The translations under genes and the position numbers were made by a program. Shown piece by piece: positions 19,223 through 23,734 of a stretch of DNA of 49,002 bases (positions are counted from its first letter, which is position 1; each line of letters opens with the position of its first letter). The DNA is from Clostridia bacterium (GTDB lineage Bacteria > Bacillota > Clostridia > Christensenellales > Borkfalkiaceae): assembly GCA_017887095.1 (NCBI GenBank), contig JAGHIT010000047.1:1-49002 (forward strand), read 5' to 3'. The notes below the pieces were generated by a model. It was not told where the DNA came from and did not search any database. It saw only the letters and a program-made list of their open reading frames with translations.

Positions 19223-20161
19223 ATGCAGGAAGTTCCCGTATATCTCTTTCTCGGCTTTTTAGAGTCGGGCAAGACAAAGTTTATTCAGGAAACGCTGGAA
19301 GATGCGCGCTTTGATTCGGGCGAGCGCACCCTGCTGCTTGTTTTGGAGGAGGGGGAAGAGGAGTACGATCACTCCAAGTTCGCCAACCCGTCTTATGCCG
19401 TGGAGTTCCTCGAGCCTGCGGACATGACCGAAAAAAATCTCTCCGCACTTGCAGAAAAATATTCGACGGAGCGCGTCGTCGTCGAATACAACGGCATGAG
19501 CATGCTACAGGACTTCTTTGATGTAATGCCAGAGGGCTGGGCGATCGCGCAGGTCATGACCTTCTTTGACGCGACTACCTTTCTTGCTTACAACAAGAAT
19601 ATGCGCCAGCTCGTCTTTGACAAGGTGCAGTACGCCGATATGGTGGTATTCAACCGTTTTAAGGGCGAATACTCCAAGGAAGAATTTCACAAAGTTATCC
19701 GCGGCATGTCCCGTCGTCCGGGGATCGTGTACGAATATCTGGGCGGGAAAGCGGAATATGATGAGATCGAGGATCCTCTTCCCTATGATATCGACGCGCC
19801 GATCATCATGATCGAGGACAAGGACTACGCCTTTTTCTATCGTGACCTGGTCGAGGAAATGGACAAATACAACGGAAAGACCGTGCATTTCAAGGGGCTT
19901 GTCGCCGTTGATAAGTCGTTGAAAAAGGGGACGATCGTGGTCGGACGGCACATCATGACGTGCTGTGAAGCGGATATCGCCTACAGCGGGCTGGTCTGTG
20001 AGCAGGTCACGGGACAATACAGGACGCGCGACTGGGTGGAAGTCACGGCGCGCATTGAGGTGCGCTATCACGCCGTCTACGGGCAGAAAGGTCCTGTCCT
20101 GAAGGCATCGAGCGTTACGCCTGCCGCGCCGCCCGAACAAGAACTTGCAACTTTTTATTGA
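19223..20161 (+). CDS. CobW-like P-loop GTPase with C-terminal YcgQ/DUF1980-like segment
   Basis: YLFLGFLESGKTKFIQETLED P-loop; C-terminus VHFKGLVAVDKSLKKGTIVVGRHIMTCCEADIAYSGLVCE resembles the CCAAD-type motif of TIGR03943/YcgQ; 4 nt after the preceding CobW gene. Confidence 0.7.
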   Translation: MQEVPVYLFLGFLESGKTKFIQETLEDARFDSGERTLLLVLEEGEEEYDHSKFANPSYAVEFLEPADMTEKNLSALAEKYSTERVVVEYNGMSMLQDFFDVMPEGWAIAQVMTFFDATTFLAYNKNMRQLVFDKVQYADMVVFNRFKGEYSKEEFHKVIRGMSRRPGIVYEYLGGKAEYDEIEDPLPYDIDAPIIMIEDKDYAFFYRDLVEEMDKYNGKTVHFKGLVAVDKSLKKGTIVVGRHIMTCCEADIAYSGLVCEQVTGQYRTRDWVEVTARIEVRYHAVYGQKGPVLKASSVTPAAPPEQELATFY

Positions 20162-21139: not shown

Positions 21140-22348
21140 TTACTTAAGAAATGCCTGAAATTTGGCGGCGTGTTCCGCGGGAATGATGACCTCCAATTCC
21201 GTTCCCTGTTCGGTATAGTTGACGCTCTTTTCCGCAACGAGGGAACGCAGCGCCGCGTATTTTGCCGATTGCGCATAGGGCACGAACAGGTTGGCGCGAA
21301 CATAGCGCGATTGCAGCTCTTGGAAGATGCGGCGTTTCAGCTCGTCCAAACCCTGTCCCTCCTTGGCGGAGATCATGACGCAGTCGTGCGGCAGGCGGGC
21401 ATCTTCGGCGAGCAGATCGCACTTGTTCATGACGATCAGATAGGGGGAAGAGAAGTGCATGTCCTGCAAGGTAGCGAGCGTCGTCGTAAGCTGCGTCTGA
21501 TAGTCGCCGCATGCGTCGCAGACGATGAGCGCGAGATCGCAATGCAATGCGCTCTCTAACGTTGACTTGAAGGCGTCGATCAAATGATGAGGAAGATCTT
21601 GTAAAAAGCCTACAGTATCGGTCAGGAGAAACTTCATGTCATCAATCGAAAAGGCTCTGGAAGTCGGATCAAGCGTCGCAAAGAGAGCATCTTTAACGAG
21701 GACGTCCGCACCCGTTAGTGCATTCAGAAGCGTTGATTTTCCAGTATTTGTGTAGCCGACCAGTGCAATCGATCGGACGCCGTCCTTTTGCCTGCGCTGG
21801 GTAAGAAGTCCCCGCCGAAGTTCTGTTTTTTCAAGTTTCTCTTCTAAAGAACGGATGCGCGTACGAATGTGACGGCGGTCCGTCTCCAGCTGCGTTTCGC
21901 CGGGGCCTCGCGTACCGATGCCGCCGCCGAGGCGCGAAAGGGCGCTTCCTTTGCCCTTGAGCCGAGGATACATATATTTGAGCTGCGCAAGTTCGACCTG
22001 CAGCTTTCCTTCGCTGCTCTGCGCGCGCAGGGCAAAGATGTCAAGGATGAGCGTCGTACGATCAATGACCTTTACGCCGCCGAGCGCCTCGGAGAGATTA
22101 ACGGTCTGGGAAGGGGAGAGCGTACCATTGAACAGTACGGTCAGATCAAGCCCTTCGATGCGCTCGCGCAGTTCTTCAACTTTGCCTTCACCGAGAAAGG
22201 TTGAGGGATTGATCTCGCGGATCCTGACCTTTATCGTCCCAGCGTATGCTGCCCCTGCGCTCTCGATCAGCGCGATCGCCTCGCAGTGGAGCTCATCATC
22301 CTTAGCTTCATTCAGAATCGGTTGCACAACATAGACGTTCTCAGTCAT
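21140..22348 (-). CDS. hflX: ribosome-associated GTPase HflX
   Basis: GPGETQLETDRRHIRTRI, VGYTNTGKSTLLNALTGA, DTVGFLQDLPHHLIDAFKSTLE. Confidence 0.97.
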   Translation of the reverse strand: MTENVYVVQPILNEAKDDELHCEAIALIESAGAAYAGTIKVRIREINPSTFLGEGKVEELRERIEGLDLTVLFNGTLSPSQTVNLSEALGGVKVIDRTTLILDIFALRAQSSEGKLQVELAQLKYMYPRLKGKGSALSRLGGGIGTRGPGETQLETDRRHIRTRIRSLEEKLEKTELRRGLLTQRRQKDGVRSIALVGYTNTGKSTLLNALTGADVLVKDALFATLDPTSRAFSIDDMKFLLTDTVGFLQDLPHHLIDAFKSTLESALHCDLALIVCDACGDYQTQLTTTLATLQDMHFSSPYLIVMNKCDLLAEDARLPHDCVMISAKEGQGLDELKRRIFQELQSRYVRANLFVPYAQSAKYAALRSLVAEKSVNYTEQGTELEVIIPAEHAAKFQAFLK

Positions 22349-23418
22349 TGGTCGTCCTCCTGCTTGTGCAGTTTGACGGCGCTTGCGACCGAACGACGGT
22401 GGTCTTCGGTGATCGCAGCATAGTGCTTTCTGGTCGTATTGACGTCACGATGCCCGAGAACGTCGGCAACGATGTAGATGTCGCCTGTTTCGCGGTAGAG
22501 CGCCGTGCCATAGGTCGAGCGAAGTTTATGCGGCGTAATTTTTTTGAGCGGCGTCACGATTTTTGCATACTTTTTTACAAGATTTTCTACAGCGCGGACC
22601 GTAATGCGTCGGTACTGGAGAGATAAAAAGAGGGCATGCTCTTCAGATGATACGCGAGGATCGTTTTCCTTCTGGGCGAGATATGCCGCCAGCGCGTCTC
22701 CGACTTCCTCAGAGAAATACAGGATTGCCTGATTGCCTCCTTTGCGTGTCACAACAAAAGAATTATTGGAAAAATCTATACTTTCATTGTTGAGTCCAAC
22801 CAGTTCTGAAATACGGATACCTGTCCCCAAGAACAGTGTAAGAATCGCAGTGTCACGGATCTTCGTTTTTTCATGATATCCTGTCGCGTGTTTTGATAGA
22901 CCGTTTCCGTCTTCCGCGACATCAAGGATAGAGGAGATTTCATTTCCCTCCAAGCGTATAATTTCCTTTTCATGAAGCTTAGGCGTAGCAACCTTTGTCG
23001 TCTGATTGATTTCAATCAATCCTTTGTTAAAAAAATATTTGTACATCGATCGTACCGTAGAAAGCTTACGCGCCTTTGCTCGTTCATCACAAGATAACCG
23101 CTTATTATGAAAGATATAATTGGAAAGATAACTTAGAAAAATTTCAAGGTCGGTATCAGATACCTGCTCCAAATCTTCCAATGTCAGAGCCGGAATAGTT
23201 TTTGAATTACGAAATTTTTTCCTGCAAAGAAAATCAAAAAAAATGCGAAGATCATAGACATAATTAAGACGAGTTAAAGTGCTCGTGCGGTTTTCCACAC
23301 CCCGCAAATAATCCTCACAGAAGGGAGGTAATTCCTGCAAGATCAGATCGATTTTATCTAAATTTTTGATATTCCGATCCTGATAATAATCAGAACCATC
23401 TGTTTTGATTTTTGCCAT
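22345..23418 (-). CDS. tyrosine recombinase, XerS-like/XerCD family
   Basis: SAM-like N-terminal domain; LGTGIRISELVGL (catalytic R), ITPHKLRSTYGTALY (HxLR), LGHRDVNTTRKHYAAI (GH..Y); start MAKIKTDG just after TTGACT-17-TATACT. Confidence 0.9.
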   Translation of the reverse strand: MAKIKTDGSDYYQDRNIKNLDKIDLILQELPPFCEDYLRGVENRTSTLTRLNYVYDLRIFFDFLCRKKFRNSKTIPALTLEDLEQVSDTDLEIFLSYLSNYIFHNKRLSCDERAKARKLSTVRSMYKYFFNKGLIEINQTTKVATPKLHEKEIIRLEGNEISSILDVAEDGNGLSKHATGYHEKTKIRDTAILTLFLGTGIRISELVGLNNESIDFSNNSFVVTRKGGNQAILYFSEEVGDALAAYLAQKENDPRVSSEEHALFLSLQYRRITVRAVENLVKKYAKIVTPLKKITPHKLRSTYGTALYRETGDIYIVADVLGHRDVNTTRKHYAAITEDHRRSVASAVKLHKQEDDQ

Positions 23419-23424
23419 AGAATA

Positions 23425-23453
23425 AGTATAGCACAAAAAAAAAAGAAAGTCAA
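23425..23453 (-). promoter_or_regulatory. promoter of the Xer-type recombinase, spacer contains A10/T10 tract
   Basis: Minus strand TTGACT (23453-23448), 17-bp spacer, TATACT (23430-23425), ATG at 23418. Confidence 0.75.
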
Positions 23454-23480
23454 TTTTTGCGAATAGTTTCTATCCTATAC

Positions 23481-23506
23481 CTCGTTTTTATATAAAATGA
23501 CTGTCT
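23481..23506. repeat. 26-bp direct repeat, copy 1
   Basis: CTCGTTTTTATATAAAATGACTGTCT, identical to 23619-23644. Confidence 0.97.
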
Positions 23507-23552
23507 GATGCTTTTAATGGAACAGCAGAAAAATAGGAGGGTGGATTAACAT

Positions 23553-23586
23553 AACTATTCGCAAAACACAGCTTTTACGAATAATT
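23553..23586. promoter_or_regulatory. candidate dif-like recombination site
   Basis: AACTATTCGCAAAA-CACAGC-TTTTACGAATAATT: inverted arms with a 6-bp centre; core 23556-23583 is 11-6-11. Confidence 0.55.
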
Positions 23587-23618
23587 TATCAAAAAACAAT
23601 AATTAAACAATCCATAAT

Positions 23619-23644
23619 CTCGTTTTTATATAAAATGACTGTCT
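23619..23644. repeat. 26-bp direct repeat, copy 2
   Basis: CTCGTTTTTATATAAAATGACTGTCT. Confidence 0.97.
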
Positions 23645-23734
23645 CATCTAATGAAATGAAACGATAATTGCACGACATTATATTATACATTGCACGGCAT
23701 ACAACGATTCCAGGATTCCTGGCAAACAGACAGA

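Follow-up and report, generated by a model that had tools for sequence, protein, structure and literature searches.

A probable single-recombinase chromosome dimer resolution module of Clostridia, with an XerS-like gene and a dif-type site at the replication terminus

The recombinase gene and the adjoining 28-bp site

The window, which is the whole stretch of 49,002 nucleotides analyzed here, contains a tyrosine recombinase gene whose neighbors are hflX and glycogen genes (Table 1). Its product matches both tyrosine recombinase domains in Pfam, PF00589 (1.3e-29) and PF02899, and contains the catalytic residues R202, K226, H297, R300, H323, and Y333. These six positions are kept across 30 aligned relatives, including E. 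coli XerC and XerD, the tyrosine nearly so. The structure model of the protein has a mean pLDDT of 74.9 and is poor over 294-341; its PDB matches, XerA, XerD, and XerH, all have low TM-scores and confirm only the tyrosine recombinase fold.

Among the NCBIfam models, XerS (NF003462) ranks first for this protein, and the XerC, XerA, and XerD models rank lower. The earlier note had called the recombinase XerS-like; its length and its best model agree with that name, but it is not XerS itself, since its 193.8 bits lie below the curated NF003462 cut-off of 267 bits, which was passed in 0 of 293 Clostridia genomes. In the tree, where Paenibacillaceae sequences represent XerS, the XerS-like proteins of Clostridia group in a single clade (97/99) that joins the Paenibacillaceae XerS (98/95) and is distinct from E. 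coli XerC/XerD as well as from the clostridial XerC/D-type proteins. Judged by its sequence, the recombinase is an XerS-like protein and a member of a deep clostridial clade that is sister to the XerS of Bacilli as sampled in this tree.

Table 1. Coordinates of the proposed module in the window
Feature	Position	Strand	Remarks
XerS-like tyrosine recombinase gene	22345..23418	-	357 aa; translation, Pfam, NCBIfam, aligned residues
Recombinase promoter, TTGACT-N17-TATACT	23425..23453	-	extended -10 TG
Promoter-proximal half-site, AACTATTCGCAAAA	23455..23468	-	same as one site arm; likely autoregulatory operator
dif-type site (11-6-11), TATTCGCAAAA-CACAGC-TTTTACGAATA	23556..23583	.	sequence, conservation, copy number, skew
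Same site read on the minus strand, TATTCGTAAAA-GCTGTG-TTTTGCGAATA	23556..23583		
Left arm, TATTCGCAAAA	23556-23566		
6-bp center CACAGC, proposed strand-exchange region	23567..23572	.	varies between species while arms stay
Right arm, TTTTACGAATA	23573-23583		

Upstream of the gene lies an inverted 11-6-11 site, present exactly where and as the earlier note had described it, with a single mismatch between its arms at arm position 7. A third copy of the half-site, claimed to lie upstream of the promoter, is there as well: its plus-strand sequence TTTTGCGAATAGTT matches 23553-23566 in inverted orientation without mismatch over 14 nt, and on the minus strand it abuts the -35 box (AACTATTCGCAAAA-A-TTGACT-N17-TATACT). 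Only 6 nt separate the end of the -10 box from the ATG, and the recombinase mRNA is therefore probably leaderless. The dif-type site is also flanked by 38-bp direct repeats (87%) at 23472-23509 and 23610-23647, with no other copy in the window's genome; since they are restricted to this locus and none was noticed by eye upstream in the relatives inspected, they were left out of the module.

Conservation of the site and of the promoter arrangement

In GTDB genomes, 80 orthologous loci with identities of 70-91% were found, several of them labelled Candidatus Gallimonas, and 78 have enough upstream DNA for a site call (at least 18 of 22 arm positions, no more than 1.3 kb upstream). The site was found upstream of the orthologue in 72 of these 78 loci and in 0 of 69 downstream control stretches, in which the best score was 15. 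Six loci lack a site inside 1.3 kb, and contig ends or divergence are possible there. In the close loci, the arms are nearly symmetric except at position 7. The 72 sites contain 31 different centers, with the length fixed at 6 bp while the sequence varies freely.

Similar conservation was observed at greater distance. Of 25 genera sampled in the order, 24 have an orthologue (G052 is counted on a weak, probably unrelated match), with identities of 46-58% outside the genus, and most other families of the order have an 11-6-11 site upstream of the recombinase. Two families (G047, G059) have the recombinase, and no site was found in them. The distant arms are often changed yet symmetric, in TATGCG, TCTTCG, TTTGCG, and TTTTCG forms, and the outer hexamers are symmetric in 16 of 19 distant sites. 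Such joint change of both arms is the selection that a dimer of one protein would be expected to impose.

The single copy and the conservation upstream of orthologues, by which the earlier note had proposed to judge its reading, were both observed. With up to 3 mismatches allowed, the 1.84-Mb assembly contains no second copy of the full site, and relatives mostly have one copy. Because the site is unique in its assembly, is found beside close orthologues and never in the controls, and recurs in distant families, it is not a product of chance. One MAG (G031) has two full sites with different centers, at C3:3536 and C43:463, which reflect either contamination (7%) or a second integrated site.

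The order of half-site, -35 box, 17-18 bp, and -10 box occurs in 53 of 79 loci and has no match in 1.23 Mb of control DNA taken from these loci. The half-site can track the full site, as at L187 (TATGCGTAAAA in both) and L096 (CTTTTCGCAAAA in both), and is diverged in L080-L083. Many loci of the window's genus have a half-site that abuts the promoter, but the order as a whole does not always have one; at 4 of the 19 distant loci, it is the full site whose end lies 3-5 bp ahead of a -35 box. The arrangement suggests that the recombinase may occupy the half-site and block its own promoter, and the half-site is best read as a putative recombinase-bound operator at the -35 box, outside dif. In several loci (L056, L065, L066, L067, L074, L075, L076, L077), the dif-type site and the recombinase gene are separated by a small gene of the XRE helix-turn-helix type; by eye, the two genes seemingly form one transcription unit in some of these.

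XerS-like genes outside the order (L184, L186, L189, L210) have other symmetric sites upstream, such as TATCGGATAAA-TATCTG-TTTTTCCGATA, and further dif classes probably exist in Clostridia.

Position at the terminus and the number of recombinases

The earlier note had also looked to the GC-skew switch and to other xerC/xerD genes, and both lines of evidence bear out a single-recombinase Xer/dif system. Cumulative GC skew, taken for the window's own genome from the 49,002-nt window, has its maximum at 22685, and the site at 23556 is 0.9 kb away. In three single-contig chromosomes, the peak and the site are similarly close: 2269332 and 2270631 in G060 (1.3 kb), where dnaA at 911 kb is roughly opposite the site; 772943 and 771591 in G189 (1.4 kb); and 2530558 and 2527958 in G095 (2.6 kb), which is outside the order and has a weaker site with 9 of 11 arm pairs. 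The switches are blurred in some MAGs, being 10 kb off in G006 and weak in G022 and G024.

Two genomes separate the site from the gene. In G038, the site (64309) is 54 kb from the gene (118016), and the switch to negative skew falls at about 50-64 kb, close to the site and away from the gene. In G023, site and gene are on different contigs; the skew of contig C8 peaks at 20133, 258 bp from the site at 19875, and the gene's contig has no comparable switch at the gene. Since the switch follows the site and not the gene, the site marks the terminus independently of the gene. By position and conservation, the site behaves as a putative dif rather than as an operator.

These separated sites speak against another explanation, in which the palindrome would be only an operator controlling the recombinase gene, like an integrase autoregulatory site. 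Such a role would agree with the location of the site, upstream of the gene, and with the additional half copy at the promoter. However, in G038 and G023 it is the site that the skew switch accompanies, single-contig chromosomes have the site at the terminus, the center varies freely at a fixed 6 bp, as is typical of strand-exchange regions, and a microvirus is located between two such sites. An operator alone is thus very unlikely, and was rejected on the separated sites of G038 and G023. Another possibility is that the gene encodes a mobile-element integrase with the 28-bp site as its att site, as the protein is a tyrosine recombinase and two other integrases in the window's genome look mobile, one of them adjoining a probable replication protein (judged from sequence). 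We regard this as scarcely credible and rejected it, because an orthologue is present in 24 of 25 sampled genera; moreover, the site is single-copy and at the terminus, and no flanking element surrounds the gene and its hflX and glycogen neighbors in the window.

A further question is whether the protein acts together with a second, undetected recombinase as an XerCD-like pair. None of 61 genomes yielded a PRK00283 XerC/XerD-type gene above the curated cut-off, which is so strict that only 5 of 14 controls pass it, and for the window's genome, an 84%-complete MAG, the absence is drawn from its relatives. In most of the 61 genomes the best PRK00283 match is the XerS-like gene itself, and 8 have a weaker XerC/D-like gene of 200-262 bits. 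No classical dif of B. subtilis type was detected, at 3 mismatches, among 11 genomes of the order, in a search for which other Clostridia gave no clear positive control. The weak XerC/D-like genes of a few relatives, and the slight asymmetry of arms that differ at position 7 in most species, would fit a pair; however, the arms are otherwise nearly identical, as one protein would need, and most genomes are without a second candidate. A pair is therefore improbable.

Very probably, then, the locus is a chromosome dimer resolution module in which a single XerS-like recombinase serves a dif-type site at the terminus. In the mechanism that we infer, each arm of the 28-bp site would be bound by one of two protomers of the protein, and a dimeric chromosome would bring two sites together at the septum. 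A tetramer would then cleave and exchange strands across the 6-bp center, restoring monomers. The FtsK translocase would probably control this exchange; an FtsK gamma domain is encoded in 9 of 9 genomes tested, and in four of them about 10-58 kb from the site. The lone half-site at the -35 box is probably a second target of the XerS-like protein, which would thereby repress the promoter of its own gene.

Relation to known Xer systems and to phages

The single-recombinase Xer systems surveyed are XerS, XerH, XerA, and XerL (PMC5357621, PMC2731167, PMC9765430), and the hosts described are streptococci and lactococci, some Epsilonproteobacteria, Legionellales, and archaea. Closest is XerS/difSL, which shares a single recombinase of about 356 aa and a site beside the gene at the terminus; XerS is also the nearest NCBIfam model and the sister clade in the tree. 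The difSL of streptococci and lactococci, however, has 31 bp, unequal arms, and an 11-bp center (Le Bourgeois et al. 2007, reviewed in PMC5357621), whereas the site described here has 28 bp, an 11-6-11 layout, almost perfect symmetry, and another arm sequence. The protein is only about 30% identical to Paenibacillaceae XerS, and the promoter half-site is a further difference.

XerH/difH of Helicobacter and Campylobacter also combines a single recombinase, a site usually near the gene, and a 6-bp variable center (PMC2731167, PMC5357621), but sequence similarity is weak (5jjv, E 5.8e-6), and the phylum and arms are different. XerL/dif of Legionellales has a single recombinase, perfectly symmetric arms, order-wide conservation, and a mobile element at the site (PMC9765430); unlike the present site, its dif is more than 400 kb from xerL, and its arms were reported to be unlike any known Xer-binding motif (PMC9765430). 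The 28-bp 11-6-11 architecture at a skew maximum is shared with XerC/XerD (CodV/RipX) and the classical dif, but two recombinases act there and no such pair over the curated cut-off was found here. The dif prediction of Kono et al. was restricted to XerCD-bearing genomes (PMC3025954).

Thus, the single-recombinase kind, of XerS, XerH, and XerL type, is already known. Its Clostridia version appears to be without an earlier description in the open-licence literature, in which none was found of such a system for Gallimonas or of a Clostridia XerS/dif; an earlier report elsewhere is possible. Chances seem about even that the Xer lineage of these Clostridia is a separate one, that its distinct symmetric dif class extends over the order and into other orders of Clostridia, that half-dif binding represses a probably leaderless promoter of the recombinase, and that microviruses and tailed phages exploit the system to integrate or to resolve dimers.

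The single-recombinase Xer systems would gain an entire order of gut Clostridia, most of them uncultured, and probably further members of the class, in genomes where curated models would not name the recombinase gene XerS. The site may provide a sequence marker of the terminus in fragmented MAGs and an attachment site for linking phages to hosts. The module may also serve as a compact, symmetric one-protein recombination tool, and is a testable case of an Xer recombinase that may regulate itself.

The exact site was also found in 17 viral contigs, and the reversed control pattern in 0. In at least five of them (L166, L171, L173, L175, L177), the site adjoins a terminase large-subunit gene. Through the host recombinase, phage-borne sites perhaps serve to integrate the phage or to resolve dimers.

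One viral contig, L181 (8661 bp), contains genes for methionine gamma-lyase, LexA, and an XerS-like protein, followed by microvirus genes. Its microvirus replication (Rep) and capsid (Phage_F) genes are located between two sites, an intact one (3570) and a degenerate one (8477, 19/22), and the right arm is directly repeated over 18 nt at a distance of 4953 bp. The stretch L181:3570-8556 looks like a microvirus provirus at an XerS-type dif. This layout resembles the published pattern of gokushovirus prophages at dif in enterobacteria, in which the downstream motif is a variable phage copy (PMC7062461).
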